Positions 1,971 to 63,100 of a stretch of DNA of 64,000 bases are shown here, piece by piece. Positions within the stretch are counted from its first letter, which is position 1. Every line of letters starts with the position of its first letter. Below the pieces are notes generated by a model that saw only the letters and a list, made by a program, of their open reading frames with translations, searched no databases and was not told the DNA's origin. The translations under genes were made by a program, and so were the position numbers. Source of the stretch: Nereocystis luetkeana (Eukaryota > Sar > Phaeophyceae > Laminariales > Laminariaceae); the NCBI GenBank assembly GCA_031213475.1, contig JARUPZ010000002.1, forward strand, positions 4,535,049 through 4,599,048, read 5' to 3'.

Positions 1971-2003
1971 CCAGGTACCTAGCACCTGGTATGATACCTG
2001 GTA
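1969..2003. repeat. cluster of TACCWGGTA-type motifs
   Basis: Three copies of the short motif lie within about 35 bp: two imperfect (CACCAGGTA, CACCTGGTA) and one perfect TACCTGGTA at 1995-2003. It is the first dense cluster of a motif scattered through the non-satellite parts of the window. See the findings for evidence that it is gained or lost as a unit. Confidence 0.8.
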
Positions 2004-2115
2004 TTCCAGTAGTACGTATAGTCCGTGCAGAACTGTAACTCCAGTACGGGTTCGACTTCGTAGTATATAACATTGATATATACCTTGTGTTCTAAGGCAT
2101 TTACATTGGGTAGGA

Positions 2116-2153
2116 GATTGATTAACATTTTACCTTTAGCCCAACGAACTAAG
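2116..2153. repeat. direct repeat, copy 1 (partner at 2618-2655)
   Basis: A stretch starting GATTGATTAAC and running through TTTAGCCCAACGAACTAAG recurs about 500 bp downstream with a handful of mismatches. A shared TTGGTCGTGA follows each copy further on, so this may be the best-kept part of a longer, diverged duplication. Confidence 0.7.
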
Positions 2154-2617
2154 ACGTTAAAAATGGCGTCGTCGGCAGGACATGTGTCGTTGGTCGTGAG
2201 TTCGAAGCTCACGTCCACCAAGAAAAACGCTTTTTGAAAAGAGAGTTTATTTCCTTATACTGTATCAAGAATCTGAAAAAATACTTCTGGATCCCCAAAA
2301 GTTGGGACCACGTCGACACGTATGATATATGTCCGGTCCGTTCCAGGGGGGGGGTGTTATGAGTAGTAGCTAGCTATAAGGCTTAGATTGGGTCGTTTCA
2401 GGGGCGTCCTTGAAAAAGAGAAAACGACACACCACACCCCCAGAGGTCGGGATGGGAAACCGTTGCAACCGTTGTCATAATAACATGATGAATCACGAAA
2501 AAAAAAAAAAAGGATAATCATTATCTTCATTTTTCACTTGGTTCTATTAATAATAGTAACTCTCCCCTCCCTATCAATCTGGGACGGTCCACATTTTTTT
2601 TCCGGGCGCCCTTGGGC

Positions 2618-2655
2618 GATTGGTTAACCTTTTATCTTTAGCCAAACGAACTAAG
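2618..2655. repeat. direct repeat, copy 2 (partner at 2116-2153)
   Basis: Second copy, starting GATTGGTTAAC. Between the copies are a poly(A) run near 2498-2511 and a G-run near 2347. No gene is recognised in 2010-3090. Confidence 0.7.
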
Positions 2656-3092
2656 GGTACATGTATGTCGAATTGAAAAGTACAAAGGCCTTGGTCGTGA
2701 TCGCCTCCTTGGGTAAAGGGGGTTGGATACCGTCAGGAACACAGATAGATTCAATGTACGCAGTCAGTACAGCGAAATAAAGGACTGCTTGAAAAACAAA
2801 ATCGGGTAACCTTGGGCATGGCGAAAGGGACCGTTTCTCGGCCATTCTTGTTGGGAGGGGAAATCGTTAACCAGGTTCTCTGCAAAAAAAGGTATACTCG
2901 TACAGAAAACGTCAAGCGGAGATCTCTCCAAAGTTTTGGTCGGACTCGAGTTGCGAAAAGTGCACCCCCGCAACAAAGGTATGCGTAACGTTTTCGCTCT
3001 ATGTATACGTATACCGACGATAAAGATGCAAAATAATATGCTCGAAATAAAAAGCCATTATTCTACCGATGACCGTGTCATGTACAAGGCGT

Positions 3093-3189
3093 TTAACCCC
3101 TTTAGAACCCCAGTCCCGTTTTGGGGACAAACTACTTGAAATTTGACTGGTTTGTCCCCAAAACGGGACTGCGGTTCTAAAAGGGTTAA
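3093..3189. mobile_element. piggyBac-like MITE with TTAA flanks, copy 1
   Basis: An almost perfect hairpin. The left arm begins CCCCTTTAGAACC and the right arm ends GGTTCTAAAAGGG. The arms run about 40 bp inward through AGTCCCG and TTTGGGGACAAAC and leave a loop of only about 15 bp. TTAA abuts both ends (3093-3096, 3186-3189). TTAA target duplication with termini starting CCC is the hallmark of piggyBac-type elements. At under 100 bp this is a non-autonomous derivative. Other copies lie near 3259-3343, 51982-52068 and 56098-56194, with half-copies near 36.2 and 38.45 kb. Confidence 0.8.
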
Positions 3190-3343: not shown

Positions 3344-3344
3344 C

Positions 3345-4679: not shown

Positions 4680-4689
4680 TACCTGGTAC

Positions 4690-5690
4690 ATACGTACGAA
4701 GTAGTGTCCATCTATCTGCCGCATACGAAAAGCGCCTGAGATTTTCGGCAGCGCTCAATGACCAAGTCATCGCTGTACCGTGTTGTGGCTGAACACTCTA
4801 CGGTACATCACCGACTCTCGGCTATATAGTACTACATGCGTATGACTCAGAATGGTTTTCACCGTGTCAAGGGTTCGAGATTTTGCATCACATGATCATA
4901 TGGCGTACCGAACGTCGACCGATGCACCCATCGGGCCCGGGCAACGCCAACCCCGTCATTCTCCCGACATAAACTACGGCAAACGAGTAGACAACAGCAA
5001 AAGCAGCAACACCCCAAGGAGCAACAGAATGATTGCAACCATCAGAGCACTTTTTTTGTCGCCGGGGTCAAAGTACACAATCCATGAGCTCCAATCCATG
5101 GTGGCCGGAAAAATTTAGTGGAGAAACAGGCAGCGCCTCCGTACCGAGCCACCGTAGCGGTGATCGTTGTTGAGTGATTTGGTTTCGGGCGACGCCTGGA
5201 CCTGTCCAATAGAACAAACTGCGGGAGGGGAAGGAAGTGACGAGGGAAAGGAGGGAGGGGGGGCAGGGGGGAGGGGCATTTACCCAAGAAGAGGGTGGGA
5301 ACATGGGTGGACGGGACCCCTCCATTTCGAAATCCTAGAAGAAACTGGGCAAAAGGCCCAGGCCCCGGCCTTCTAGCACCTTTAGGAGCATAAAAAAACA
5401 CGTAAGGTACCGAGCTTTCCACATTCTTCTGCGGACTTTGCATCCTTTGTTTACTACTAATAGTTGAGTACCTGGTATGTATGTCTCAAACGGTGCTTCG
5501 AGTAGTACTAGTAGAAGGCCTTCCGTTTGGATTGACTTCCGAGTACATTAAGGGGGGCTTTGCGCGGTGTTTGGCGTTCCAAAACGGACTCAGAACGCCT
5601 GCCTTTTACCCGTCACACGTGGCCAACCGACTAACCCCTCAAACCCCCTACAGACATACAGGCAAAAGCTCCCGCTAGAGAGAGGGTATT
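4690..5690. other. anonymous sequence with a purine tract
   Basis: No gene recognised. Positions 5221-5295 are almost pure purine (G and A) on the plus strand, a candidate triplex-forming or G-rich tract. A perfect TACCTGGTA lies at 5469-5477. Confidence 0.45.
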
Positions 5691-6115: not shown

Positions 6116-6403
6116 CTCTCCAGCTGCAACAAGACCGAAGAGGGGCACATTCGGCTCGCCCTCTATCTACAGAGCGGTTATACCAACTTGCCGTCATCGA
6201 GAAACTTGTTTGCCAAAATTATTTACTTGCGATATAACCTCCAAATACAATATATACCGTCGTATGTATGTGAAATTTAACAGGAGGCAAAATATCAGGA
6301 CCGTTCAATTTCACCTCATTGGAAAATATTTCACTAATATTGAAAGAAAGCTGTCCAATAATAACGGTCCAAAAATATCAGGAAAAATGAAATTTACAAA
6401 TTT

Positions 6404-6802
6404 AACAGACAAATCGGAAAAATGGGAACGAAACAAAAAATGAGAACGGACGTTTTTTTTTAGAAAGCAAACCAATTGTGTACAACTCCAAGAAAAAAAG
6501 TTGACAGTCCTGTGGGGCTGTACAGCAGCCTTCGAATGAGCTGTCGCTCAGGCTGGAAGTCCTCGACATCGCCGCGGTAGCCAGCATCTATCTAGAGAAA
6601 TCACAATAGAGCCAGCGTATATCGCTTTTTGCGCCCACCCGAAGGCACGAGATGGAGCATGATCGTTCTGACGAGCTCCTCTCACAGGGCTGGCCAAGGG
6701 GTTTCGCAGGATCATTTTGGTTATCTGATACACCACATGGTTCTGGAGATACGGCTTGGTTCTCATTTTAGGCTTCGTTCCCATTTTTCCGATTTGTCTG
6801 TT
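6404..6802. repeat. inverted-repeat pair, 45-bp arms
   Basis: The sequence at 6404-6449 (key part AAATCGGAAAAATGGGAACG) returns in reverse complement at 6758-6802 with few mismatches. About 310 bp of unrelated DNA lies between. It could be a fold-back element or two copies of a dispersed repeat in opposite orientation. I see no target-site duplication. Confidence 0.65.
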
Positions 6803-6979
6803 ATTTGGGAAAAAATCCCACAAGCAACATGGAAAACAAGCTCTCCGACAAAATCGGCCCAAAAACAAACATATTGATTAACGAGGGTGAGCTGGGCGTG
6901 CGTCTCTAGAGGCAGCGACTTCATCACCTAACACATCAACGGGGTCGTACATGCCAAGCCCTCCGAAGATTAAAACCTA

Positions 6980-9370
6980 AACACCTTCTGGAAGGTATAG
7001 TTACTACGGTAGGCAAGCGATTCAACAACGCTCCAAAAGCAGATTCAACAAGAACCTACGGTGAGACTTGAAAGGGATCGCAGAAAGGCATTTCGTCGAA
7101 ATATCTGAGTGCTGCTCCACCACAGCTACGAACTGAAGGTCGATCGTCTTAGTAGCACGAAATAGAGCTCTAACAAAATGGAAGTGTATGTCGATATGCT
7201 TACTCCGAGCAGAGCTAAGGGGGTTGTCAGCCAACGCGATGGTCCCCTGGTTATCCTCGAAACTTCGGACACATGATCCGCTTAGCTCTGGACAAAAAGA
7301 CGGCATCACTCCGCCGTAAACAAAGCTCCCTTCGCCCCTTCACCCAGGGCGACGTACTCTGCTTCTGCTGTGGACGACGTAGTACTACTTGCTCAACTGA
7401 CGGCCGCACCCCTCAGGGTTATTATCACCCCCGATACCGAGCGCCTATCGTTCCACTTATCAGCATAATCAGCCTCACTAAACGCAGTAAAACCCAATCC
7501 CGAGCCCCGCACAAACGTCAATCTAAGCTTCTGGTCACATGAAACCTTCCAGGCCTCTCGGTAGGGTTGTGGGTATGGCGCGCCACAGCACGCACAGCGT
7601 TCGAGGTGTCCGGCATCGTTATGGCCGACAGCCACATCAAGCTGCCCACAGCCTCCTGGTGCGGTCAGTCTCTTCCGCGGTGTCCGACTTGTGGCGCAAA
7701 AAGTACACCCATGTTTTCTGTGAAAAGTGATCGCACACGATCAGAGTATACCGCTTCCTCCCGACAGACTCTATTACCGTAGGTCCACTCAAATCCACAA
7801 AAACCCTCCCGAGCTTCTACTCTGCTCGTGTGTGCGTGGACTGTTCGATGCTCTTGCGCAGACCCTCCGTCATGGGCCACGCTGTGCACTCCAGTAGCTC
7901 TCCCTCGAGGACGATTCGTTGCTGCTCCGCGGTCTTGCGGGGTAGGACCTCGTGAGGGTGTCTAGCGGCGCAGGGGAAGTCGTTGATGTCAATCGCGCAC
8001 TTACTTGTTGGACAGTTGCCCCGGGGCGAGTACAGTACAGGTCTTTCCCCTACTACTGGGGTCAATCCGGTAGCCGTAAAGACTGTCAAGGGAACCACAG
8101 AACGTAAACACGATCGAACGCTTTTACTGAGTTTGACTACAACCCTCGTGGGGCGTCCTTCGAAAGTGTGGCCGTTTTTAACGAGAGTGGGCAGGGAAAA
8201 TAGGTGGTAGCGAAGGTCCGGCACGTGCGCAACGTTGGTTAACAGCACTTGCACGAGACCGTTTCCGGACAAAAAGAGAACGTTCACGTCGCCGTATTAT
8301 TTGGTCGATCGAGTAGATCCATCAACGATGCGCAGTTTGCAGTTGACTTCCCGATATTTGAGCATGCGGTCTGCTGAGGGCATAATGCGAGTAGACGCGC
8401 CACAACCGCAGATCCAGCTTTCGTCTACTACGTGCCAAGCCTACTCCCCTTCCCACGAGCCACCACTGCACTCGCCAGTCTCTTCGGCCTTGAAAGTTGA
8501 GGTGTGGACCGTACCTACTTCTTGGTCGTCGTTTCTTGCCCCAACCTCGCTCGCCACCACCATGACAGCCTCGTCCTTCGACGTGAAGCAGACATCAGCA
8601 GCGTGCCCACTTCCGTCGCATCCACTGCACGGCTTTACCGTGCAGTTTGCAAGCCGATAGCCCTTATTGCTGCATTCGAAGCACCTCCTTACCAAGGTAC
8701 TACCTTCGGCGGTTTTGGCGCTACTGCTGTCACCACCAGCAGTCCCGACGCAGTCACCACCGGACTCACCGCTCAAGTATGCACCCCTCTCTCCAGCCCT
8801 CGCTGGCTGGTCTGGCTGGTCCTTTACCGGGCCGTTTTCGACAAAAACAGCAGTTTCCCCTCGTCCCGTTGCTACGAAACTACGCGAAGCAATATCCCGT
8901 AAAATCGTCTAATCCCCTGCTGTAGTGTCTCGTACAGTAGTGGGTACTGCCCCTCGTGAGCTCTCTCCTACAGCTGCGCTACCCTCGATGCTGCCGGACT
9001 CCGATCGACCAATGCCTGTTTCAACAGCAGCAGTAGTCTCTCGTACTTCAGCGGTGGGTACTGTCCCTCGTGGGCTTTCCCCTACAGCAGTGGTTCCTTC
9101 CTCTGCTGGGGCCTCTCGTACAGCAGCGCTGCCCCCAGCGCCACCGGGCTCCGATCGACCGTTGTCCCTCATGAACTCGGAGATCATGCTCCTCATGGCG
9201 TTCATCATTGATGCTTGCCTTTGCTCCAACGCCGGTTTGACCTCGCGTTGTAGCTTTGGAACTTCACCGGAAGGATCGTGCTCTACGTGGGCCGACCTCA
9301 CCGAAGATATCCTTGGCTTCTGGAACACCAGATCTCAAACGTTCAAGTCACTATCAATAGTGTGTTCGTA
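6980..9370 (-). mobile_element. Ty1/copia LTR retrotransposon fossil (broken)
   Basis: Internal part of a Ty1/copia-type element, read on the minus strand. From 5' to 3' of the element I recognise a gag-like stretch (about 9.33-8.91 kb), a zinc-knuckle region (about 8.78-8.44 kb), the protease-to-integrase junction (about 8.29-7.82 kb; NVAHVPDLRYHLFSL is typical of the GAG-pre-integrase region), and RNase H in two blocks (about 7.64-7.39 and 7.31-7.02 kb; DNQGTIALADNP and ARSKHIDIHFHFVR are family hallmarks). It is clearly broken, with several breaks, and much of the polymerase cannot be recognised. I found no matching LTR pair on the flanks, so it is probably old and 5'- or 3'-incomplete. 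Confidence 0.85.
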
Positions 9371-10412: not shown

Positions 10413-12025
10413 AAAGCCTCGTCAAATTTACCTGCACTAAAATGGTTTCCGTATGCGAGCTCTGTCGTCAGGTCTTCGCCTGGCAGCACGTCAACTGGAA
10501 CCCCCGCGCGTGATGTGCTTAAATTTTTCAATTCCCGGAAACTTTTTCTTGCACCCGAAGAACGCTTCCACGGCTCCGGGCTACTATGATGTTTGTCAAC
10601 GACCCGCCCAGCCATCGTAGCACTTGTCCCTACGTCCCATATCAACCCCCCCCCGCCTTCCCCCCGATCATTCGCTACAAAACGTTTCCGACGGTTGTGT
10701 CTAAAACTCTTCAGCAATCGTTCGGCTGTATCCGTCTTTCCACCTACTTTCAATAACAATCCCTGTGCTACCTGCTACCTGCCCACGCCCTTGCTCGTCT
10801 AAGCGTTGGTCGGTCATCGCATATTTTTTCGACAAAGCCACCGACCCTAAAATCTATCCCCCGTCATAGCTCAGCACCCAACCCAACCTCCTCTCGATGG
10901 TCCTCGTCGCGGGTACCTAAGTACTGCTGCTGGTTGCTTGTTAGGTTGGCTCCGTTGTGCTGCGGAACCCGTGCCCTCGATTTTCTTGTTGGCTTGTCGT
11001 CGCACTCTCTCCCTTCTATGCCCCCCTTCCGACCCCACGACATGCCCCGCTCTCTTCCTTATTTCGTTTCCCCTTACGTCCCCCTTTTCACAGAAGGAAC
11101 GCGTCGCTCGGTAGTTTGTACAAATCATCGCCCCGTGTACTGGCTGTACGCAAGAAGTCGCAAGGATAGGAGGCCAAACTGCTATCGTGTTTGTACCTGC
11201 ACGGATTCTCCGTTTGTGGCTCGTGTTGAAGACACGCGTCATACTAGGTGAGGTCATAGCAGCCCCCACTTCTCCCTCTCCGCTCCCTGCCCGCCCCTCC
11301 TCCCACCCTCCCCCGATTCCGTTTCTACCATCCTCTTCCCAACCCACCCCCCTTCCTACGTACCACCCCCTCGCGGTGGTCTCCCCCCCGCCCCCGCCCC
11401 CCTTTCCTACTCCGACCCAAACGTCGGACTCCTCCGTGTGCACTATTTATTACCTGGTAGTTGGGTTGGCGCCAACGAGATCCACATGTAGATCCGTTCG
11501 ATTGGGAGCGGCGGCATCGAGCCTACCTTGCTCGGGCCGGGAACGGGATTCCTGTTTCCTGTTGCAGCAGAAGCCCCCGCTGGGTCATCTCTTCCGCCCA
11601 CTCCTGCAGGTCCTCGTTGAAGTATTTAACGAACGTTAGCTGGAACCGCCTCGAGACTGTCACCAGTGATTTATGTGTATGGAAAATCTGCACGCTTTGC
11701 GCGACTACCCTGAAACGTTCTGACAAGTCGGCCGACCGTCGCAGTGACGCTTGCCCGTCCCGCTGGTGCTGTCCGCTAAATACTGCGCGAGAGTAATTGT
11801 CAGTAGAACAGCAACTCTACCCTATGGCCCAGGATACCTGCTCCCCCCCGTTCCCCTCGCGCCAAGGGGCTCCTTCTGCGCGAAGTCCCGGATATCCACT
11901 CAACACGGCGATGCCAATTGTTGCGTCTCCTCTCGCTCATTACTAAAAAAAACAGCGGCCAAACTCACTGCGTCCACCGTTTCAAACGGCAGGGGCACCC
12001 CGCTCCCGCGCACTGCTGCCCAGAC
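10413..12025 (-). CDS. probable three-exon gene fragment with TPR-like motif
   Basis: Three minus-strand segments bounded by splice-like sites keep one reading frame. They are 12025-11969 (ends before GTGAGT; VWAAVRGSGVPLPFETVDA), 11639-11527 (after TTCCAG, before GTAGGC; contains FVKYFNEDLQEWAEEMTQRG) and 10547-10413 (after GTGCAAG, before GTAAGA; ends LAYGNHFSAGKFDEAL). Intron phases agree (0, then 2), and the introns would be 329 and 979 nt. The final residues match the first helix of a tetratricopeptide repeat (G-N-x-x-F-x-x-G-K-F-x-E-A-L), a protein-interaction fold. The family is otherwise unknown. The frame could instead stop right there, because TAA overlaps the last donor. A SINE abuts the first segment at 12026, so its 5' edge is unknown. 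This is an inference from signals and composition; it could be a decayed gene. Confidence 0.38.
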
Positions 12026-12227: not shown

Positions 12228-13030
12228 CTACCATGTTGTGGCTGCCCTGTTCCGCCAGGCTACCTTCGAAACGGGGGGAGCTTGCGATATCTCCCTCACA
12301 ATCCCGTACCCCACCCCTCCCCACCCGGCTGCGGCCCGAAGAAATGAAAGTTCAGCGCTCCACCCGCCCGCCCCCGAAATTCCTGTGTTTTTTGCGCTCC
12401 GCTACCAGTGTCCCCTACTGCGGCCTAGTGCTGTGTGAAGTGTCTGCCCTATCCACCCACCCTAGGACTGGGTCTGGGTGCCTCTGCTCTTCCTGTGCTT
12501 GCCACCGCTGTAGGTCCGGCTTCGACCTTAAAACTCCTGCCTCCCATGAGCTCGCAGCCCCCGCCCGTCCAACGGGCGCCCCACCCAGCTGCGTTCGTTA
12601 CCGTGGCGATTACCCCCCTCGAGTATACCTTCTCCCCCGCGCCCCGCCGACCTCCGTTTGTCCGCTCCCGCTTATGTTGCTGCGGACCTGATTGCTGCCG
12701 CTGCCACTGTCCCGATGCTTTCGACCCCCCCCCCCTCCCGCCGACAGATGTGCCCGTGTGGAGAAGCAATAGAGAGTAGAACTCACATACCAGGTATTAA
12801 TATTAGGAGAATGTGCAGTGTACAAGGAGGAACGGGATGTATGTGTAGGAAGGGAAGATGAGGGAAATACACGAATGTGACATTGACGAGTTTGATACAC
12901 TAGATAGCAGCAAGAAAAATGATCGCTATCCTAGGAGATAGAGGGTGACCACAGGCGGCCAAACAGGAAGGGGACAAGACTAACAAACTATTATGTGTAA
13001 TATGGGGAAACAACGTAAATAGGAGTAGGA
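12228..13030. other. C-rich anonymous sequence
   Basis: Strongly C-biased on the plus strand. Frames are open on both strands for up to about 110 codons, but their composition (proline, arginine and glycine) follows the base bias. A segment near 12650-12720 (GCTGCGGACCTGATTGCTGC) resembles one at about 13140-13195, suggesting a diverged dispersed repeat. A perfect TACCAGGTA lies at 12788-12796. Confidence 0.4.
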
Positions 13031-13130: not shown

Positions 13131-13277
13131 TCCAACCTTCTTGCGTGTGGCCCTGCTGCTGTGGTGGCGGGCCTAACTGCTGCTGTTACCGTGGGTACGC
13201 CGCCTCATCCACGATGCATGGTACGATAAGGGTGCAGCTGATCTTTGCCGAAGCTCCTCACTCGAGGAGCTTCTTTT

Positions 13278-13389
13278 TATTACGGGGGGGCATATTATAT
13301 AGGACCAAATATAGTTAGAAAAAAGGGGAAATATATATATAGGTTTTGGTATGTGATGTAGGTCCTGCTTACTATGGTCCCCCGTCATA
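13278..13389. mobile_element. TTACGGGGG MITE, diverged copy
   Basis: About 112 bp bounded by TATTACGGGGGGG and ACTATGGTCCCCCGTCATA. The inner part matches the two better copies at 28892-29002 and 39043-39153 (AGGACCAAATATAGTTAG), but with more mismatches. Right-arm bases GGTCCTG..TACTATGGTCCCCCG are retained. Confidence 0.7.
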
Positions 13390-35155: not shown

Positions 35156-35627
35156 TACTCGATAGGAGAGATGTACTCAATCTCATGCATGGCCGTAGTC
35201 GTCCGTCGCATCCTTACAATGCCAGGACGGAGCATGTCGGGTTTTCACCGACCAGGCAGACATTGAAGGGTGAGCTGCATCCTACTAAAAAACGCTTGTG
35301 GGGCGAATTTTTGAATGGATGACAGCTTCAATGAAATAATTCATTTTCCGGTGTAACCACTCCCAAAGACAGCTGTATTGTTTAGCTGCCTCTTGGGTGT
35401 ATTACCATAAACACTACCAGGTACGTGATAATATCATTCCCCTTGTGTGGAGTAAAGGTGTTTCATCTCGCACAAATGATCTACGTCAGTAATAAATAAC
35501 TAGACCACCAGCTGTGACCGACCGCCAAAAAATATAAAAGCGGTGCCCTGGCTGTCTAGGTCAAGTAGTGAGCGGCATGTCTTACAGTGTCGTTGCCAAC
35601 CGAAGCCAACCCGAGCTATACACAATA
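35156..35627 (-). mobile_element. repeat B, long copy (minus)
   Basis: Reverse-complement copy of the 26.1-26.6 kb repeat. G-runs (C-runs on the repeat's own strand) lie at both sides (35141-35155; 35628-35633). It lacks the segment around GCGCTTCGCGCTTGG present in the other copies, so it carries an internal deletion. At 35415-35423 it has TACCAGGTA where the 26-kb copy has only TA (26319-26320). Confidence 0.75.
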
Positions 35628-38642: not shown

Positions 38643-38888
38643 CAGGAACAAAATACCTACCAGTAGTACCTGGTATTTGTATAATACCGGCAATTATTAA
38701 CAAGGATATTCAAGCGGTCCTAACATTCGCTAAACGGAGTGGCACGTCGCAGTAGAGCGTAACCGACATGACGCAGGAACAAAATACCTATTTGTATATT
38801 ACCGGCAATTATTAACAAGGGTATTCAAGCGGTCCTAACATTCGCTTAACGGAGTGGCACGTCGCAGTAGGGCGTAGCCGACATGACG
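38643..38888. repeat. two-copy tandem duplication (131 + 115 bp)
   Basis: Copy 1 (38643-38773) and copy 2 (38774-38888) start CAGGAACAAAATACCTA and agree except at a few bases. The one length difference is 16 bp. Copy 1 carries CCAGTAGTACCTGG plus an extra TA exactly where copy 2 has a single TA (38789-38790). Confidence 0.95.
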
Positions 38889-40925: not shown

Positions 40926-43900
40926 TGGGCTATGTCTACTACAACGAGGATCGATTTCAGGATCCCAAATCCCTAGTCTATTGTTATCAGGCTTGCCATC
41001 CGACAATTTGCAGCTTGAGCTTCCGCGTTGACCACTCAAAACATTCCTGAAAGAAGAAATCTCCGTATACGAAGGAAACCTACTCGTATACACCAAGCCT
41101 ATCTACCTTCTATGTCTACTTCCTTTTACGTTTCATCTACGGCACTCTGTTGTCATGACAATACGAGAGTATCCAAATATATTGTCGACGACAATATCTA
41201 TCGATAGGCACGTTCGGAGTCTATTGCGGCCGAAAAAATGTATCGGCAGATGTTCCCTTCGTCTAAAGTCGGAGCACTAAGCTACTTTGTTGAGTCTACT
41301 GTCGTAGATACTGTGCATTATGCATGCAGGTGGTTGCGGCTACACCTTTTTGTTTTGAGCCGAAAATGCCCGATGAGTACACCTACTGTATATATAGTAC
41401 AAGTGGGTGGACTATGCCCAGCCGCCATTGTAGCATGAGTTCAGGGTAGCACTACTGTACAACAGCAGCATCTACAATGATACGTGCACGAGTATAGATA
41501 CCAATTGATCGAAGGCAGAAACTGAAAAGCTAAAACCCCGATTAGATCTTCACACGGCGCCGCAGGACCAGTGGAAGCAGCACAAACGGCACCCGCTCGC
41601 ATCACTCAGAGAGCTCACGTGGACGATCGCGCGATATATCTGATATACCACACATTACTCGTGTCATGCGCCCGAACGGGCTGAACGCAGCACCGCCAGT
41701 ACCGGTCTGTTCCACTGTGATATGGGATACAAGGCGCTTCGCTCCGCGGACGGCGTACGCCGCCCGCTACGCTCGCTCAGGAAGGAAAAGTACATAAAAT
41801 TATGTGAGGCGGACAGAGGTCCATGATTGAAAGCAGTTTTTTTATTATTGTAGTTGCAAACTGGCGACTTGACGATTCCAAGAGTCCCGCCGCCATACTT
41901 CAGGAAAAAGCAGCTCGGGCGCCACATACCCTTCGCCCGCTACGCTTGCTCGCGAGGAAGAAGAGTGGAACGGAGCAGAGGCGGCCTAAACAACAAGGCG
42001 GAAACAGGCGATTTGTAAATGCCAAGAGCGTTAAGCATGCTCCATCCAGGAAAACAATCCGAACGCCTCATGCCGTACGTACGAAAATGCCCCAGGTAGG
42101 GTACTTACTTTATTGTTTTGATATGCTCTATGTACGAAAGAGAAAGCACAGCACGGCGCGGCAGCACCGCAAAAACAATGAAAATGAAACCGAATTTCCG
42201 GAAAGAGAAGAAAAAAAAACGTCCCCTATCATGTAGGAGTAATAATTTTCGGCCTGATTAGAACACCTTGCACCGGTCAAAATAAAAGGGCATAAAAAAA
42301 ACGAACAGCAGATCTTCTCTCTCTGCCTCGTACGCCGCCCGCCCCTCTCGCGACCACCTCGACGCTGATCCGGTCCGGGTAAAACTGTCCTCCCTCTCTA
42401 CCACAGTGAGCACCGTCGACCGCGTCGCGTTAAGCCCGGTGCTTACCGTGGCCGTCGTTCGCCAGCTCGACAATGTTGGTGCCCACGCTGCATAGCTCTC
42501 TCTCTCAACTTCAGCTTGGTCGCAAAAATAAGCTCCGCGTGAATACTATCTTGCAATCCCGAACAACGCTCATAGACTCAATTGTACATACTATCTCCAA
42601 TTCCACATAATATGGGGGCCAGACAGAGCGCCCATTCATGCTTCCCTCGTGTCTCGAGACACACGCGACGCCTAGCCACGAGTACGGCGACCGCGCTCCT
42701 TGCAACCCCCCGCCCTCTACCCGCCAGCACCCGCTGACACCTACGACGGCGCCGGGCTCGCCCGCGGTGCCGTGCTTCGAGTACCCGCACGCACACGAAA
42801 CGAAAGACAAGGGAAAAACGAACCGAAAGTGCCAAAAAAAATGGAGAAGAAAGCAAACAACCAACCGCTGGGAAGGCCCGGCAAGCAATCGAAGGAGAAG
42901 TTGTCCAAGTGGGAGCTCTGAGAGGCCAGGGATGTACCACCAACCGAGCACGCTCAGAGAGTGAGATGTCTGTAAGCACCTCTACCTCGCGATTCAGCGT
43001 GGGGCCGAAACACGTCGGGAAACAAAAATTGAATGTGTCAAGATTGTGGTCCAAAACATTTCGAGGCACCCAGAAAACCGATGCCGCGCCCCGGGTCCTG
43101 GCACCGGGACTAACCCTTAGGATATTGGTGCCCGCCCGCAAATTGCTGGTTCCGCCCATCCAGGCACTACGAATGGTTCATGCGTCGTTTACGTACACGC
43201 GCGCGTTTGGGATGTACGCTGCTTCTTCTGTGGCGACCGCCACTCGAAACAGACATGGTACCTGGTAGAACCTAGAACCAACTAAAAACGAACAGGTTCC
43301 ACACAACGTGAAGGCATTCAAATTGCGTTCAAGGTACTCGTACTACTGCTGCTGTACCGTCCGGAAGTTTCGGGCAACCACCTCTGTCACCGCCACAGAA
43401 GCCGCTGCTGACTGTCGTACAGAGGCGCGGTGTAGCTATAATTGTCGCACACTGGCTGCGGCGTCCGTGTCGCGCGCGCCGATGCCTCTTTTATACACCG
43501 CTCACCTTTCTTGGTCAGCATCGTTCGTGGCTTTGAGTTGCACCCAGCGGCGGAGTGCCTGCGGGCGAGGTCGAGATGATCTTTCGACACACAGCTACCT
43601 GAAAATTGAGAGCGTCGAAAAACAGCTACTTTTACTGAAGCCCTGAGTCTCGCTCTTCTTGCGTCTTGCGGGTTTCGCGGTGTACGGGCACCCCTCACGA
43701 GGCAAGGGCTAGGCAGTGCAGCTATGCAAACTGCCAGGTATCCTTGTGCGTGGGGTCCCAACGTGAATAAAATCTACCAGGTACCAAACAATCGGCGGAT
43801 CGTGCGGTTTCTGGAGGCCAGAGGACAGGGGACAGGGGATGTATTTTTATATTCATCTAAAAACAAAAGTAACGCTCAGCAACTATGTGAAACCTCGTTT

Positions 43901-45073: not shown

Positions 45074-45136
45074 TATCAGTGCGACTCCGGCTGGAAGAGA
45101 GTTTCGTTTCTGTGGGTTGTGTAGCAATACCTGGTA

Positions 45137-46185
45137 CTCGTTTGCTCAGCAGGGAACGCAAGGGTTGACATGAAGCGTACAGGAGCTGGGGTCGCACTGG
45201 CAAAGCCGGGGCCTTATAATGTCGGCCTCCGTCGCCCGGCGAGGCGAGAAACGCCGCGGTCACGTGTGCCTACTACTGTGCCAAAGGTCGAGTCAGAAAT
45301 CGACGCAACAAGCAATCAGTAATAATGCTACCAGGTACAGAGTACGTATCAGAGTGACTGCTGGTGTGCCCGGTAGTCTGTACGTAAGGCCCAAGAACAA
45401 AAAATCGTAACGAAATGACTGCCAGGTATGTACCAGGGTGTGATGCAAGTATTAATAGTACTGCTGCTGTAATCTGGAGTGTGTACCAGGTATATCGATA
45501 TGCGTGTATACAACTGCCGTAGTATGTGTATGTATTGTAACGTACCAGGTAACAGGTAACAAGAACGCCGCATTCATCTTTTGGGAGACTCTCCCTATGT
45601 ACGTGAGAAATATGGATTCAGAAATCGTCCTGAGCGGCGAGCAGCACACGAAATCCTATATAAGAGCCCCCTTGCTCAAAGTTGCTCCAAAGTTCTTATA
45701 GGGAGTCACCTATATACCGGTGAAGGTTCCAAGAGCAGAGATTTCGATTTCGATCGCCGTACGTACGAGATCATAAAATATCAAGGTACCTGGTGTGTAC
45801 CAGGGACCCACAGATAAAGCGTTTTCTAGTTGGCATGCCGATACTGCAACTGCTGCACGTACTGACTGCTAATATCGTACTCACTGCTGTAGCTCTAAAC
45901 GCCCCCCCCTCTGTCCTTGGAGGCACCTGCTGCTGCTGCTTTCGTCGGTCGTTGTGCGACTGGCGAGTGGCATTTCGGTTTAACATCATGTAAGTATAAA
46001 TGCCTTGTTGTGTCGATTTCCGACTCGACCTTCGGCACAGTAAGTAGTAGGTAAACGTGACCGCGGCGTTTCTCGCCTCGCCGGGCGACGGAGGCCGACT
46101 TTGTAAGGCTCCGGCTTTTCCAGTGCGGCCGCAGCTCCTGTACGCTTCAGGTCAACCCTTGCGTTCCCTGCTGAGCAAACGAGTT
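45137..46185. repeat. large inverted repeat, about 176-182-bp arms
   Basis: Arm 1 (45137-45312, starting CTCGTTTGCTCAGCAGGGAA) returns in reverse complement at 46004-46185 with roughly 85-90 percent identity by eye. The 690-bp spacer is rich in TACCWGGTA motifs (45329, 45484, 45543, plus imperfect ones near 45420 and 45789). It could be a fold-back element or two opposite copies of a dispersed repeat. No terminal duplication is visible. Confidence 0.8.
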
Positions 46186-51149: not shown

Positions 51150-51980
51150 TATTGGCTGTAGACCCCACATCGGACCGTATAAATACAACCGCTTTATCAC
51201 CCGCCTGAAATGCACAGACATCTATTAATACACAAATGCTTTACTTTCTTTTTGGATCTTTGTAAAGATAGTATATACCTCCGAAGTGCTGTACGTGCGT
51301 ATGGTATGGGAATCTCATATCATATATTAGCATACGCAGAAATAGTCAATCTGGTCCAAAACTAAACGTCAGCGAGGTACGTTGTTGTTCATCTGGCGTG
51401 GGTTGTTCTTAAACCTGAAAATACGGTCAAAACGCGCATCTCCCGGCTCAGGTTTCGAACACGGAGGCGTTACTTGTGAGAGGGTTTTGAAACCCGCAAA
51501 GTTGGTCTACTTTTGAAGATTGTCGTTTGTACCTGGTACATTTTTTCGAGTCGGAGGACGACCGAATCATGTATTCACTCCTCACGATACATGTGGCCAT
51601 TAGGCGAGAGGCATCTGAACCCGTTGTTGTATCCAGGACGTATTTATTGTAGGTCGCAAAATTGGCGTTGTCGTTTTCCGGGAAGTATATCGAGGAATTG
51701 GTCTCCCGAAAGAGTGAGATGCCGATTCACGTTAAAAAATGTCATTTTTTTTCTCTTCAGGTGAGCAGTTTATCTTACGTAGAATACATCTCTGGCGATC
51801 ATTTATTGGGACATGTTATCCTACGAGTGTAATCTTGAATAGCTCTGACGAGAACTTGCTGGGTTTCGCCCGAAACTGACAGCAACGTCAAAAATCGAAC
51901 TGCGTCCCTGGAAAAAATGAAACGGGTGCAGGTGCCCTCCCGCACACCGGATGACGCCAGATATCATGGGAAGCGCGTAA
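51150..51980. other. anonymous sequence, no gene recognised
   Basis: No named feature apart from a perfect TACCTGGTA at 51530-51538. Confidence 0.4.
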
Positions 51981-51981
51981 G

Positions 51982-52068
51982 CCTTTTAGGACTGCAGTCC
52001 CGCTTTGGGGACGAAACACTCAGAACTTGAGTGGTTTGTCCCCAACACGGATATGCAGTCCTAAAGGG
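51982..52068. mobile_element. piggyBac-like MITE, eroded copy
   Basis: Hairpin CCTTTTAGGACTGCAGTCCC ... complement TGCAGTCCTAAAGGG around TTGGGGACGAAAC / GTTTGTCCCCAA. The TTAA flanks are lost and the arms have drifted together (AGGACTGCAG instead of AGAACCGCAG). Confidence 0.75.
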
Positions 52069-52685
52069 AAAAGCTTGGTTCTGTCGTTTCCCGACTCAAA
52101 ACCGCGTACATCTATATACCCTGGCACGTGTTTTACAATTTCGGACCGAAAATGGTGTTCTCAAAATCCTGTTTCGTACAAGCGATTTTCGTAAGACACT
52201 CGAAAACATTATGGTATTTTTCCTCTTTTCTGCAAAAAATGCGTAAATCTGGTTACTATTTCCCTACTGTAGGCGTTGTACTTCCCACGGCACAATTTAC
52301 ATCGACGGCTTTCGGGGACTCTTGGTGTTTGCGATCACTAATTTATCGGTAGTGTACTCAGTAGTTAGTGTGCATTTTTTCCGATTTCAGAGTCTCTCCA
52401 AAAAATGATGGTGACACGAGTTAGATTGTTATCGTCGAAAGCCGTTTTTGCCCTATTAACAGTGTGTATCACATGTACGGGATAACCAACTTTTGCGATG
52501 CTATTGGAAACAGACAGTAGCACAAGTGCCTTGAGCTTGGGATAGCTTTGCTGTGTAACACCTTTCAAGCGGCTGTATATACCTCGCTAGGAACATGAAA
52601 TGAGGCGTTGTGTTGCCAGGACTAGTTCGCCCTTTTGTGCGAACGCTTTTTATTGCTGTCGGTGGTTCATACCAGCTGGTTCATA
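52069..52685. other. anonymous sequence, no gene recognised
   Basis: No supported feature. Confidence 0.4.
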
Positions 52686-54240: not shown

Positions 54241-56060
54241 AGATAATTGTATCACGTCGTTTGGGTGTATGCCAAAGCGTACCAAGCGATATTGCACTGC
54301 TATTAATAGCTGTAGTCGCGAAACGCTATACTAAGACGTGCCAGGAAACAGGTACTCGTGACATGGAGCAGCCGCGTACAAAGTTATACCCAAAATCGTA
54401 TCAGGTAAAGTACGGCGGCACTCTGATATCGACAAGGGTGCACACAAAAACGTACCAGGCTGTGTAGAGACCCGTACGAGGTGTGTTATGTAAAGCAGTT
54501 ACCAATGGTATTTGGAGCCGTAGATAACACAATCACGTAAGTGTGACATCAGGTACGTACCAGGTATAATTAATACCAGGCAGATGTTTACGGTACCCCC
54601 AAACAGGTCGGTAGATTATGGAAAGTCGTTTTGTGTACCAGGTATGAATTTATGTACGATCATAAAGCAGTACGCATCTGGCACCCTGACATATGTGTAT
54701 GCAATTACGTCCCATGTATTCTACAGCAGTTACCAGTACCTGGTGCGGTACACAGAGTAATTTGTCCTAAAACTGAGTTGGTAAAGTAACCCACCAGCCA
54801 GGTACTACTCGTACTTCTTCAATTTTTCAGTATTTAAAACGTTCGGTAGTAATGGATTTCAAGTCCTATTAATACCAAGTACCAGAATCGTTTTACAGCA
54901 GTTGGCACCTTGACTATTAATAGTACCAGGTAGTAAGGATACGTTTATGCTAAAAGTTATCTGATGGACTGCACTCTAGAAGTTTCTCCAAAAGCCTCAA
55001 CCGCACAGGTAAACAATGTACCTGGTATATATATATATAACATTCGTATGTATGTACGTAGGTACAACGCTGTGTTCAGTAAAAAAAATATACAAAAGCG
55101 CTTACCACTCTGTCCCGAGGCACTAGAACCGTTTGTATATTAAAATTACATTCAAATGATCATTATATCTCGGGACGGATTTTAGTACCAGGTACCTGGT
55201 ACATGATACCGGTTTCATACGAGGTAAATTACTGCTGGAATATTTGGAAAGTCGTGAAAGCCGTACGATACAGGTGTACGTACAGTAGATACACGGGTGT
55301 GTGTTTGAAGTAAAGTTTAGTAAAAAAGGACAGGGTAAACTGCTGTGGTGTGATGATGGAAATACAGGGGCGGGCTTATGAATGTTTATTATTAATAGTA
55401 AAGTTTATTAAATGCACTATTATTAATGGTACAAGTTACATGCTGTAAAAATGGGAGAGCCGTGAAAGTGGTACATTTGTACGTATAGAGGCAAGGGTGT
55501 GTGTAGTAAAGTTTACCCAAAAAGGCTTAGTATGAAGGCGAAGCGGTTCTGGTATGCCAGTACGTACGTAAGTAGAAGGGTGTTTTTAGAAGGGATATAT
55601 ATTCACTCTGAGGGGCATCCGGGGTACAGAATACCCGAGTATGGTCAAAACAAGTGGGCGTGGTGCCCAGGTACCTCAAGAGTTGTTACCCTGACCTGCA
55701 GTAAACACACCCCTGTGTGCAAGTATATAGGGCATCGTTCATGTTACCAATATGGCCGTCAATATAAGCCATGTTTTGTATCTGATATCGATAGAACGCG
55801 GGGGTTTTTGTCCACTGTCAGGGTGATATGTATACGTTTAATATATATATGTATATATATAATATATTTTGTGTGAAAAGTACGAAAACGTAATGGCACC
55901 GCGTAACGTTCTACTGCCGGCGCATTCTCGTTGCCTACCTACAGTTACACCAACGCACTGCGGTAAAACTTGCGGTTCATCCCCTTGACGACAGGAGTAA
56001 CAACTCGAAGTACTATTAATAGTACTACAGTATTGTCAAGGACGAGGGAACGTATCGGGA
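54241..56060. repeat. AT-rich degenerate repeat region dense in TACCWGGTA
   Basis: Loosely repeated phrases recur, for example GCCGTGAAAG followed by a GTACGTA, GGGTGTGTGT and AGTAAAGTTTA series (55238-55340 and 55446-55530, about 206 bp apart). There are six perfect TACCWGGTA motifs (54558, 54636, 54924, 55019, 55186, 55193) and three ATTAATAGTA motifs (54916, 55391, 56015). No gene is supported. Confidence 0.65.
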
Positions 56061-56097
56061 ACACAGGCAGTAGTGACGACCGTCTATGGCGTTTCGC

Positions 56098-56194
56098 TTA
56101 ACCCTTTTAGAACCGCAGTCCCGATTTGGGAACAAACTACTTGAAATTTGACTGGATTGTCCCCAAAATGAAACTGCAGTTCTAAAAGGGTTAA
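56098..56194. mobile_element. piggyBac-like MITE, good copy
   Basis: 97 bp including TTAA on both sides (56098-56101, 56191-56194). Arms CCCTTTTAGAACCGCAGTCC ... CTGCAGTTCTAAAAGGG, with the central ACTACTTGAAATTTGACTGG as in copy 1. Confidence 0.85.
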
Positions 56195-57430: not shown

Positions 57431-57544
57431 TTGAAATATGTACCAGGTATGTTTCTTGATGGGAAGGGTGTGTGACTTCAGTGTATCGTTGTAATGTTTT
57501 AGTCCACTGGATTACTTCCTTTACCAGTTCACTTGCTGTGTAGT

Positions 57545-58190
57545 ACAACGTAGATTTGGGTAGACACCCGTAACATACTACCAGGGTATTGGTTCTCGGC
57601 CCGTTAAAATACTTTCTGTACCGGTGTACTGATTAACGTATGATACTTGAGCGTCGTTTTAGGAAAAACACCTTTCTGCATTCTCTTATTTACTACCAGG
57701 TATATGCCTTTACAGGGTAGTTTGGGGTAGGCGCCCACTGGTCCAATCCGATAGATTAATTTTCTGCACCGGTTTACTAATACCAGGTATACTACCACGT
57801 ACTGTAGTTTTGGGTAGACCCCCCACGGTTTAATCTCGATGGATTAACCATGTACCGGTTTTTCCGGTTTCGTGCGATGCAGTTCAGGTGGTAGGCATCT
57901 ATTGGTTCAGGTGACACGTGATGGTTCAATGGCGCGGTCGGATGGATTGCGGATCTGCTCGATCGAAGTTTTGGGTGCACTACCTAAGGGCTTAATGAGT
58001 GCAACAGTTTTATGACTCTGTGATGTATTCATTGGTTTACTTGTGAAAGTACGTCGTTAGTCACAGTAGGTAGAGGCACCTATGGGTTCAGTGTATTGGT
58101 TTACTGGCTTATCCGGACGGATGATTCTATACATACCGGCTTACTGGTTTGCCGCGAACGTAGTTTGGGGTAGATGCCTGCCGACGGCGG
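57545..58190. repeat. degenerate tandem repeat, TTTGGGGTAG unit
   Basis: About five to six diverged units of a sequence near TAGTTTGGGGTAGGCGCCCA, then TGGTTCAAT, CGATGGATTAA and TGTACCGGTTTACTGG. Unit starts are near 57551, 57717, 57801, 57885, 58060 and 58156, with uneven spacing. Perfect TACCAGGTA motifs lie at 57694 and 57781, the second inside a unit. Confidence 0.65.
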
Positions 58191-58770: not shown

Positions 58771-59819
58771 CGGGTCGAGTTTTGTCCCGTGAAATACGGG
58801 TTTTCTCGCGGGCCGGGTCTTGCCTCCTTTAGTACGGCATGGAAGCAACTGCTGTAGGCGTCTGTTTCCATGAGCATCAAAAGCATACGGGTGTCTTGCC
58901 AAGTCCGAGTGTGGACAGGGACATAGCACTGGGTAAGTGCGCTGTTCAGTGACCGCGCCTTTTGTGCAGGGATTTTCAGGTTGGCATATGGCAGTTTTTT
59001 TTTCATCAGGTGCCTGGTACTGGTATGATTTATTCCTCGGTGGGGCTGTTTATTAAGGGACCCAGCTTCGTGTTTGCAGCAAAGTACAACCTCCCTGCGG
59101 CTGTCATGATCCGCGCGTCAGCAGGAGCAGCCTACAAGAAGCAGCGGAAATGGCGCGTAACGCCGCAGTTCGGTTCGAGGTTAAGACATTATTATTAATA
59201 GTAACAGTGTCTGGTGTTTGACGTCGAAACTGCAGTACCAGATCGTCGAAACTGCAGTACCAGGTACGTTCCAAGTGAAGCACCACAGTAGCACTTTCGT
59301 GCTACGATAGACAGCAGTGACATCTTACGTCGCCATTTCCATGACAAGGTGTGAAATAGCAGAAAAAACATGTCCAGAAATTCAAGATTCCGTTCCCATT
59401 AGCATTACCATCGGTTTCTTCGCCACAAGCTGTATTTTGTAGTAGGTCCCCAATTTCAGATAACGCTAGGGTTTATTCTCGTAGCGTTGCTAGTAGTAAG
59501 AGGTTGGATCGATAGCTGTATCGGTTTTGCGTTGTGCGAGTAAAGGAGGTGCTCGTGCGTGCGTCTACTGTCGCTTCCGGGGGTGTCACTCTCATCAGCC
59601 GGATCAGGTATCTCGTAAAGGTATCTCGTAAAGGTGCAGGAGTCGCGTCTCTTCGAATCGAGTTCAAAGAGCAACACTGTCACGAGTATTACTGCTGTAA
59701 TTGCCTGCGGTACCAGGTAACTGTTATCCTAGGGTTCGTGTTTCGGAACTATGTTCATGTCCGAATGGCCGTTGGACATAAAACGGTATAGCGGCGGTAA
59801 TCCGCGCCATTTGACGGTA
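58771..59819. other. anonymous sequence, no gene recognised
   Basis: No supported gene. GTCGAAACTGCAGTACCAG is tandemly duplicated at 59224-59262, the second copy running into a perfect TACCAGGTA (59258-59266). Another lies at 59711-59719, and ATTAATAGTA at 59194-59203. Upstream exons of the coiled-coil gene may lie here unseen. Confidence 0.4.
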
Positions 59820-59891
59820 TAGGATGCGTGGTCAATGGTCAAGTGACTACGGTAGTGCAAGCAACAAATGAGCCCCCCCCCCCCCCCCCCC
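59820..59891 (+). repeat. repeat A with poly(C), copy 3
   Basis: GGATGCGTGGTCAATGGTCA, then AGCAACAAATGAG and 19 Cs (59873-59891). The C-run is shared with the left side of the next repeat B copy. Confidence 0.75.
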
Positions 59892-60133
59892 ACTCATCCA
59901 CGCTGTCATGCGTATTCAAGTCCGCCTCACAAGCGGTTCTTCGTAGGACGCAGCTCACCCTCTTCGTGTGACTCGCCGAACACCTCACGGCGCTTCGCGC
60001 TTGGTGCAAGCATGGCCTCCCTGGTTGGTAAAAAGCCTACGCGCTCCGTCCGGGCCTTGCAGGATGCGAGGGTCTACGGTCATACGACTACGGCCATGCA
60101 CGATATTGAGTACACCCCCCTCCCTCCCCCCCC
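59892..60133 (+). mobile_element. repeat B, 5'-short copy (plus)
   Basis: It enters the B consensus at AAGTCCGCCTCACAAGCGG and runs to ATATTGAGTACA, followed by C-rich DNA (60115-60133) that also forms the pyrimidine tract before the splice acceptor at 60156. Confidence 0.75.
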
Positions 60134-60156
60134 GAACATCGCCGCAATCCTATCAG

Positions 60157-63100
60157 GAACTCCGGATCGCCAAGACCCGACCGCCCAATAGCAGCGGTGG
60201 CAACGATGACAGCGCGTCGGCCGGGGAAGGGGCGGCCGGCAACTCGGACGCACACAGCAGTGTCGGCGGCCTGAACAACGGTCATTGCGCCGCACCAGGT
60301 CCCGAGGATGAGCTCCTGGGTGCTCGAAACGCCGCGAGTGGGGCGGAGGATGGACGGAAAGCGCTAGAGGAGGAGGCGCGGGGGCTGCGGGAGGAGCTGG
60401 CAGCGGCGAAAGCGCGCGCTGAGGTATGTGTGTGCGTACGCGGGAAAGGGGCGGGGGGGGGGGGGGGGGGTTGTCGATAGGAGATATGTACTCGATCTCA
60501 TGCATGGCGGTAGTCGTTCGACCATAGACCCTCGCATCCCTACAATGCCGGGACGGAGCATGTCGGGCTCTCACCGACCAGGCAGACATTGCTTGCACCA
60601 AGCGCGAAGCGCCGTGAGGTGTCTGCCGAGTCGCATGGAGGGGTGAGCTGCATCCTACTAGTAACCGTTTTTGAGGCGGGCTTGGATATGGGGGGCGGGG
60701 TAGTCATGCCCGAGCAGGCAGACGTTGGTTGCTTGCACCAAGCAAGCGCGAGGCGTTGTGGGGGTTTCACCGACCGGGATGCACGGGTGGGCGCTTGGGG
60801 GGCCAATAGAGCGCAAACGAATGGGAGGTGGGATTAGAAATGGGCGATTTGAGGGAGAAATGCCCTGAGTGGTGATCATAGATCTGGCGGTCAAAAAACA
60901 CTCTTGGGTGGTGACACTGGGAATGGCAGTTTTGAGGACAGAACATACCCTTGGGTATTGATAATCGAATTGGCGGTTTTGAGAACAGAACACCCGGGGT
61001 CGTGGTCGTTGACACCCCAAGCGTTGCCGATGAACGTAGTGGTTTGAGGGCATGACACTCTCGGCGCTGCTACGAGAGGGGGGGGGGGGCCATCACCATG
61101 CATGACCGGGGATATATGGGAGTTGCCCGTAAGATGTGGAGCGCTACTAGGCAGGAGAGAAGACGTATTCTTGCTCGAATGTTATGTTCGCGGGGATGAT
61201 CTGTCGGTATGTGTAAGAAATGGGAGACGAGGAAGAAACGATCGACGGGGATTGGGCGGCAGAGAAGGCCTTCAAAGTAGGTCCGAATATTGCTTACGAG
61301 GTACCAGGTATGGTACAGCTTCTTGTACGGCGTGTGCTCAAAACTTCGTGGTAAAAACGACAAGCACCTTGAGGGTTCGGTAAGGTGCAGGGGAAAAAAT
61401 AGGGCACGGGGAGCGCCATAATACACACCCAATTGTATAGTAAACTCTTAGTGCTGCTTCGCTGCCTGGACTGCACGTGTTTTTCTAATTGCAGCAGCGT
61501 CACGCCCTTTCGCATCCAATTCCCGAACCCAGGAGGCTGCGGCGGCGTCCCGTCAGGAGTTGCGGGAGGCGTTGGCTGCCCGAAATGAAGCGATCGGGGC
61601 CAGCGAGAACGCCTCTGCTCTGTTGAAAGCCTCCGAAAGCGAGGCGTCGAGGCAGGAGGCCAGGGCCGCAATGGCGGAGGAAAAGCTTGCAGGGTAAGTA
61701 CAACGAAAAACGCCGTCTTCTTTTTTTTTAGGTTCCTGGCTGGAGTGTTTCTGCTCGCAGCGTACCATATGTATCAACCCCGTGGAGCAGGGTTTCACCT
61801 GCTTTCGACACACGATTGTCATAGCAGCCCTCCTTGTGTTGGCGACACCCACCGTGACTCAGAGCAGCTGCCCGAAGCCCTCTTGCGAGTATAAACCTGG
61901 CACTTGCTGCAGCGTCCAGACTAGTACTTCGGTGCCACACACATACATATATGCACCTACTCTTCCGTCGTCTGGCGTGAGACAAAGACGTGCTGCTCTT
62001 GCGTGGGTAGTTTGGCGTGACGCACACGTGCTGCTCTCCTATTTGGCGTGTTGTCAGGGCTGAGGAAGGTGCAGACGCTTTGCGCAGCCGCCTAGACTAC
62101 AAAGAGAAAGAGCTGGAGAGCGCGCAGGGGGAGAGGGACGCTGCCAGGGCTAACGCTAGCGGCCATGAAGGGGGCGGAACGGAGGACAGCGCGCCTGGCG
62201 AGGACGGAGATGTAGCAGAGTTGGAAACCGAGGTGAGGTCGGCCATTATAAAGCTGGAAGACGTTTTCCGTTCCAGACAACTGTCGCCTCCCTGCTCATC
62301 TTTGTGATGATACTGAGTGCCTGGCAGTGAGTAGGGCCCGAACCGCATTCCTTGGGGGCCGTTGAGAGCCAAGTGTCGCTTTCTGTGCCTGGTATGTTCC
62401 AGGTGCTGCAGTCAAGTGTATTTCAACTATGTAACACGTCGGGCAGGTCACGACCTAGCTGTAGACCACGATTTAGATCATCTATAGTTATTTTTAGAGC
62501 CTGCCGTTTTGTGACGTGGTGTGCAGGATCTGACCAGAAACACAGATCCAACCCAGAAAAAACCCACCCTAGAGCCCATGCAACATGCGGAGTGGACAGC
62601 TCCCACGTGGCAACATGAGCTAGGTAGATGGTACAGTTCAGGAATATGTCTGCCTTGACAGGATCTAGACCATGAAGTGAAAGTTGATTGTTCTCTCGTA
62701 CTTGCCCGATGTGTCAGCCGTTTCGTGGAATCTGGCTGGGCCCAAGGCGTAAACAGCCCCTCACGAGACCCCCACTAAGCCCGCTCCCCTAACGCCGCTA
62801 TCGCTGCAACACTGCGCGCGCTGCGCGTGACCGATGGCTTATTTTATCTCTGGGACGGGTGCTGGAGCAGCTGAGGCTGGTTCGCGAAGCGGTAGCCGCT
62901 GAGAGCTCCACCCCTCCCGAGGCGACAACGGGGGCGTCGGCGGCGGCGAGGGCGGCAGCGGTGGCGGCGGTGGCGGCAGACATCTCGGCGGCTCTGGAGG
63001 TGACGGCCTTGAAGGACGCGGTGGCTTCCACCACCCAGTGGGCGAACAGGCTCCAACAGGAGCTGGAGACCGCTGTTGAGGAAAACCTCGAATTGCGGGG

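Follow-up and report, generated by a model that had tools for sequence, protein, structure and literature searches.

TACCWGGTA, an abundant word in the genome of the kelp Nereocystis luetkeana, as a probable scar of transposon excision at TA

The word TACCWGGTA recurs at high density in a 64,000-nucleotide stretch of the kelp Nereocystis luetkeana (assembly GCA_031213475.1, contig JARUPZ010000002.1, positions 4,535,049 to 4,599,048; hereafter the window, whose positions are counted from its first letter), and copies of the same repeats alternate between this word and a bare TA. We hold it highly probable (about 0.87) that every TACCWGGTA is a scar left behind when a transposon was excised by cut and paste. 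The transposon was probably a TA-specific DDE element of the Tc1/mariner/pogo type, present in few copies and long active. What surprises in this finding is the scale of the scar field, together with the absence of a source from the sequence scanned.

Abundance of the word and its alternation with bare TA

An exact pattern scan of the window finds 26 TACCWGGTA sites, 16 of TACCAGGTA and 10 of TACCTGGTA. A previous inspection of the same letters (the sequence-only reading) had listed 25, every coordinate of which is exact, and had overlooked the site at 11451. Markov models of orders 1 to 4 predict 0.5, 0.8, 0.7 and 1.0 occurrences, while order 5 predicts 5.0 because its 6-mers already hold most of the motif. 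CCWGG is the sole TA-N5-TA core that occurs at least six times in the window when the strands are pooled, and among W-centred, TA-bounded 5-bp cores in a 229-kb sample the CC type was counted 103 times and the next-ranked type 11 times. The satellite block of the window (~19.4-26 kb) is free of the word, as had been claimed, since no site lies between 12788 and 35415. Across the whole genome of 465,085,209 bases there are 182,395 matches against 1,744 for the reversed-pattern control, a roughly 100-fold excess which bears out the proposed over-representation and is far from a near-expected frequency. With one site per 2,461 bases, compared with one per ~2,550 in the genome, the window is ordinary for its genome. 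By its proteins the genome is that of a fucoxanthin-bearing alga: it holds 68 light-harvesting matches, and a query of 156 residues matches the chain FCP17 of PDB 9ygv along its full length (318 bits; the runner-up, likewise an FCP, scores 188). A second light-harvesting query, perhaps in the wrong frame, had no PDB match. The C/G-centred form TACCSGGTA is also in excess genome-wide (10,882 versus 1,899 in the control), by about 5% of the A/T-centred count, and point mutation of older scars could be the source of this excess.

The nature of the word becomes apparent when each site, together with its flanks, is compared by blast with the collected sequence: the paralogs of several sites have a clean 7-bp gap that leaves TA where the query has TACCWGGTA. 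For the site at 35415, six of the eight aligned copies (72-77% identical) have the clean gap, one has the 7-bp gap plus a changed base and one (L003:1344-1527) is scarred too; the copy of this repeat at 26137-26477 of the window has a bare TA. A stricter count, made at an identity of at least 75% over 284 kb in 50 records and without 35415 among its rows, included 155 sites, of which 52 had a comparable paralog and 19 of these 52 a bare-TA paralog. It should be borne in mind that 28 of the 52 came from deliberately fetched repeat copies (27) or a transposase locus (1), and that the 19 sites reduce, by hand grouping, to about 8 distinct repeat positions because many rows are copies of one family. 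Among other TA-N5-TA words with a paralog, used as a control, a bare-TA copy was found for 9 of 264, and 6 of these 9 abut a scar. When indels of 3-120 bases in paralog alignments were surveyed, those of 7 bases fell at 24 distinct positions, 18 of them TA-bounded and 16 of these 18 containing CCWGG. At the sites compared, the motif is thus an indel at TA and not an ancestral word, as the sequence-only reading had proposed, and the empty copies have TA where the scarred copies have TA...TA, as insertion into TA with duplication of TA predicts. The redundant contig C479 offers no test of polymorphism, since it matches C15 without a difference over 9,460 bp.

A recurrently hit TA and a possible mechanism of scar formation

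One repeat family (L010:6350-7050 and its relatives, 24 copies that are 85-97% identical) allowed a single TA to be followed in many copies. In 18 copies the TA is bare; four others carry CCTGG, extended in one of them by 9 bases, and two carry CCAGG. The scarred copies are dispersed over the star-like tree built from 23 copies, and two copies that are 97% identical differ, L010a being scarred and L024 bare. A search of the whole genome finds the bare TA between exact flanks at 219 positions (control 6) and the two-flank pattern TA-N(0-30)-TA at 40 (reversed control 24), namely 15 canonical inserts (8 CCAGG and 7 CCTGG), 9 length variants, 4 compound inserts and 12 unrelated or bare-like ones. 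With 28 scarred copies out of 247, about 11% are scarred at this one TA. The length variants are CCGG, CTGG, CCAG, GG, CCAGGG, CCATGG and CCTGCGG, and no substituted CCWGG is found among the inserts of length 5 at this TA; if we assume that half of all changes would be substitutions, the chance of seeing none in nine is 0.002. The variants are therefore probably products of repair rather than of later mutation, because decay would also yield substitutions. CCATGG, which reads as CCA + TGG without overlap, is over-represented genome-wide (3,002 versus 623 in the control), as are two-base-centred forms in the collected sequence (20 versus 4).

In 206 flanks, pooled from both sides, the base 7 positions from TA is A/T in 86% against 50% for all TA, A is favoured at -6 (44% against 25%) and T is avoided at -1 (9% against 18%); the scar sites share a symmetric target preference. 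The A/T preference at -7 is retained in TACCWGGCA (82%, n=17) and TACCWGGTG (81%, n=16), which suggests that these words are decayed scars. One-substitution variants number 109 against 27 in the control, alongside 104 intact sites, an excess which suggests, as a rough figure, a mean divergence of ~8% per site. Of 100 distances between neighbouring sites, 10 equal 7 exactly, and 4 of 9 tandem pairs (2/6 and 2/3 in two sets) have unlike middle bases, so that not all tandem scars are simple duplications. Viral contigs hold nine stretches with the tandem word.

These observations can be brought together in a single scheme. A transposon would enter a TA, duplicate it and later depart; its ends would read CCAGG...CCTGG or CCTGG...CCAGG, and its transposase would cut one strand at the very end of the element and the other 5 nt further in. 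The flanks would then keep 3' overhangs CCAGG, which could pair at the four outer positions (C-C-x-G-G) and leave A/A or T/T mismatched in the middle, and repair or replication would resolve the mismatch to A or T, giving W. Trimming, fill-in or slippage may produce CCGG, CTGG, CCAG, GG, CCATGG, CCAGGG and CCTGCGG, while reinsertion at the TAs of an existing scar would produce tandem scars. A 5-nt overhang, if assumed, would account for the word itself, for its variable middle base W, for the 8:7 ratio of CCAGG to CCTGG at the test TA and for the trimmed products. The footprint of Sleeping Beauty, TACWGTA, has the same mismatched middle.

Several known systems resemble this scheme in part. Sleeping Beauty and its relatives share the TA target; in Sleeping Beauty the first cut is made 3 nt into the element, 3-nt 3' overhangs stay on the flanks, and the footprint produced by end joining has the sequence of these donor-site overhangs (PMC7827188). 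Non-canonical footprints are known as well (PMC3770610). In grasses, Stowaway/mariner elements were repeatedly gained and lost at one site and left several footprints, 1-4 bp fragments of the terminal inverted repeats beside TA (PMC1925063), but this concerns one intron in which some sequences still hold the elements, whereas the kelp has 182,395 word matches and no element found in the part scanned. The genome-wide inventory of repair outcomes after DNA-transposon excision in rice is comparable in kind; there, however, nothing but the duplicated target remained after 8 of 94 excisions, and flanking deletions and filler were common (PMC4423477), while in the kelp one short product dominates (15 of the 28 events at the tested TA). 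As for brown algae, Ectocarpus has 17 Mariner-Tc1 families with 11,912 copies, mostly non-autonomous, and in the main text of that paper the terms footprint and excision are absent (PMC12477816). Among the matches listed from the open-licence literature, there was no report of the motif or of a genome-wide scar field.

The studies cited here dealt with few excision scars, 94 excisions in one (PMC4423477) and one intron in another (PMC1925063); a single genome with ~180,000 candidates makes transposon visits, TA preference and the shares of host repair countable in nature. The repair of one defined break can be measured as the share of canonical versus trimmed product. The scar field also suggests that transposition can be far more frequent than the copy number of an element would indicate, and the 7 bp gained at each visit give rise to frameshifts and indel variation which repeat annotation would probably overlook.

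Search for the source and weight of the alternatives

A number of observations weigh against excision scars of a Tc1/mariner-like element, and the first of them concerns the element itself. No intact inverted-repeat element with CCWGG ends was found in the 232-243 kb scanned, 232 kb of which hold ~104 scars, nor were the longer TACCAG...CTGGTA elements that the sequence-only reading had in view; the records outside the window measure 3-10 kb, so longer elements would be missed there. PF13358 has 0 matches in the genome, its control being matched in 3 genomes; PF01359 has 0 matches too, with a control matched nowhere, and is hence uninformative. At 7 of the 28 pogo-type loci described below (L053-L056, L064 and the identical pair L057/L058), CCWGG inverted repeats are absent. 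The footprint, CCWGG between the TAs, is 5 nt long, compared with the 2-4 bp of Tc1/mariner footprints (PMC7913693). As to the sites, 20 of the 52 with a comparable paralog have only motif-bearing or unclear paralogs and a further 13 have only unclear ones, and the star-like tree of the test family fails to separate repeated gain from gene conversion. As to the flanks, A at -6 is not retained in TACCWGGCA (24%) or TACCWGGTG (25%), and the A/T preference at -7 is absent in TACCGGTA (39%), in the two-base-centred forms TACCNNGGTA (44%) and in TACGAGTA (49%); not every short variant in the genome therefore need be a scar of this enzyme. The word works like a Tc1/mariner footprint, yet we do not class it as one, because 5 nt exceeds 2-4 bp and no intact element was recovered.

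The short TA-bounded words are worth a remark of their own. In 229 kb, TACGAGTA/TACTCGTA occur 44 times against 5.4-11.5 expected and TACAGTA/TACTGTA 82 times against 25-42 expected, and TACGAGTA, TACTCGTA and TACAGTA each account for one TA-bounded indel. They are possibly scars of other TA-specific families, without the preference at +/-7.

Candidate transposases exist in the genome. The pogo-type DDE_1 domain (PF03184) gives 28 matches and the Tc3-type helix-turn-helix domain (PF01498) gives 24, with silent controls in both cases. Five of the PF01498 matches lie above the cut-off, in open frames of 409-489 aa, and several on separate contigs score equally, a sign that this Tc1-type family may be young; as a lead, it is the first suspect for the source. 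Tc1-type loci lie, among other places, at C20:962229, C24:8371818, C1:12540391, C1:3120193 and C35:3888606. Thirteen PF01498 matches stand in G000:C29:3890863-5049588, mostly 82-90 kb apart, the first five on the + strand and the other eight on the - strand, an arrangement that resembles ~85-kb units set in an inverted array on the megabase scale. Among the pogo-type loci, the difference between L053 and L055 resembles an internal deletion in L055, while L057 (G000:C2, chromosome) equals L058 (C809, an unplaced contig) over 5.28 kb; the DDE_1 match of this pair contains 3 TAGs and is found in five places, and TACCWGG is absent from its 5.5 kb.

Other approaches to the element ends gave the following. 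The best 25 of 733 inverted CCWGG end pairs were scars inside larger inverted repeats or chance pairings, together with one palindrome in L008, and the best 60 of 192 rows in one scan for TA-bounded inverted repeats belonged to families of miniature inverted-repeat transposable elements (MITEs) with other ends. The L008 palindrome (L008:422-450) spans 29 bp as TACCTGG-15 bp-CCAGGTA and is either a filler-bearing scar or a very small element. A comparison of 92 half sites revealed no common continuation, and a 14-bp end suggested by a compound scar in L035 does not recur exactly anywhere else in the collected sequence.

What else might scatter such a word over a genome? Two origins had been proposed in the sequence-only reading, a Tc1/mariner-like element that leaves footprints and a tiny mobile hairpin; of the two, an excision scar fits better, though the source was not found in the 232-243 kb scanned and the Tc1/mariner assignment is our deduction. 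A unit of 5-7 bp, itself inserted at TA (a transposase able to join short end-oligonucleotides or hairpins might do so), would agree with the existence of tandem units and with the lack of any longer CCWGG-ended insert at these sites in the collected sequence. Such a unit should be of constant length, but 9 of the 28 events at one TA are length variants, with no substituted 5-mer, and variants of this kind fit the joining of two broken ends rather than the copying of a fixed unit. It is because one TA shows this spread of lengths that we favour the excision scar; we know of no enzyme that inserts 5 bp, and we consider the tiny unit very improbable. Equally improbable, to our mind, is programmed elimination, in which germline-limited, TA-bounded inserts akin to internal eliminated sequences (IESs) would be cut out during development by a domesticated transposase: the assembled DNA would be the processed form and the insert therefore unseen, which agrees with the lack of an intact insert in the sequence scanned, with the very large number of sites and with the reuse of one TA. 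To our knowledge, however, programmed elimination has not been described in fucoxanthin-bearing algae, and IES excision is precise whereas the repair of the kelp scars is variable; moreover, the excess of one-substitution derivatives means that the sites differ in age, and an ordinary transposon accounts for this. A related proposal, that excision with a 5-nt stagger is programmed and ~10^5 inserts persist only in an unsampled germline or, in a milder form, that an excision-prone transposon has lost nearly all of its recorded insertions, strikes us as a long shot.

Still less credible is a functional or ancestral word kept by selection (a protein site, a methylation site such as CCWGG, or a spacer), the TA-only copies being losses. 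The word is indeed widespread, CCWGG is a bacterial methylation motif, and the 20 comparable sites with only motif-bearing or unclear paralogs would suit such a word; but at the tested site bare TA outnumbers the scars (219 versus 28), each loss would have to delete 7 bp between two TAs, and a selected word leaves the preference at +/-7 unexplained. Least probable of all is slippage of tandem repeats or an artefact of assembly or library: it could cover the 10 of 100 neighbour distances that equal 7, but the other 90 differ from 7, 4 of the 9 tandem pairs have unlike middles and the same TA is hit on many contigs.

Sites in the window and neighbouring repeats

The sites of the window are collected in the table below; for 25 of the 26, which have no informative paralog, we infer the scar status.

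Table. TACCWGGTA sites and one related form in the window
Feature	Position	Strand	Evidence	Remark
Candidate scar TACCTGGTA	1995..2003	.	pattern scan	half sites end at 1977 and 1991 alongside
Candidate scar TACCTGGTA	4680..4688	.	pattern scan	
Candidate scar TACCTGGTA	5469..5477	.	pattern scan	
Candidate scar TACCTGGTA	11451..11459	.	pattern scan	absent from the earlier list
Candidate scar TACCAGGTA	12788..12796	.	pattern scan	
Scar TACCAGGTA	35415..35423	.	paralog alignment	within dispersed repeat
Candidate scar TACCTGGTA	38667..38675	.	pattern scan	
Candidate scar TACCTGGTA	43259..43267	.	pattern scan	
Candidate scar TACCAGGTA	43775..43783	.	pattern scan	
Candidate scar TACCTGGTA	45128..45136	.	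pattern scan	
Candidate scar TACCAGGTA	45329..45337	.	pattern scan	
Candidate scar TACCAGGTA	45484..45492	.	pattern scan	
Candidate scar TACCAGGTA	45543..45551	.	pattern scan	
Candidate scar TACCTGGTA	51530..51538	.	pattern scan	
Candidate scar TACCAGGTA	54558..54566	.	pattern scan	
Candidate scar TACCAGGTA	54636..54644	.	pattern scan	
Candidate scar TACCAGGTA	54924..54932	.	pattern scan	
Candidate scar TACCTGGTA	55019..55027	.	pattern scan	
Candidate tandem scar TACCAGGTACCTGGTA	55186..55201	.	pattern scan	sites 55186 and 55193, 7 bp apart, unlike middle bases
Candidate scar TACCAGGTA	57441..57449	.	pattern scan	
Candidate length variant TACCAGGGTA	57579..57588	.		form also found at the family test TA
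Candidate scar TACCAGGTA	57694..57702	.	pattern scan	
Candidate scar TACCAGGTA	57781..57789	.	pattern scan	
Candidate scar TACCAGGTA	59258..59266	.	pattern scan	
Candidate scar TACCAGGTA	59711..59719	.	pattern scan	
Candidate scar TACCAGGTA	61302..61310	.	pattern scan	

Other repeats share the window with these sites. A MITE family of ~105-bp hairpins, TA-bounded and with TTACGGGGGACCATAG ends, is present at 28893-29001, 39044-39152 and 13277-13389 and in many of the fetched records; its copy at L054:2249-2363 carries a CCWGG scar, where the aligned copies have a bare TA in 10 of 16 cases and are unclear in 6. A TA-bounded element of ~400 bp with identical 16-bp inverted ends ACAGACAAATCGGAAA occurs at 6403-6803 and again at L019:6786-7192. 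Palindromic, TTAA-ended elements of the form TTAACCC...GGGTTAA, with the look of piggyBac-type MITEs, lie at 3090-3189, at 56095-56194 and, more diverged, at 51974-52073. The satellite block consists of ~6.6 kb of diverged CCCTAC/CCCTACCTCAAC repeats (19390-26012), and a telomere-like AGGGTT run is found at 39847-39888. Finally, a weak Pol_BBD match on the - strand at 7817-8293 (2.3e-5, 25.1 bits against a cut-off of 27) is perhaps a copia-type remnant.

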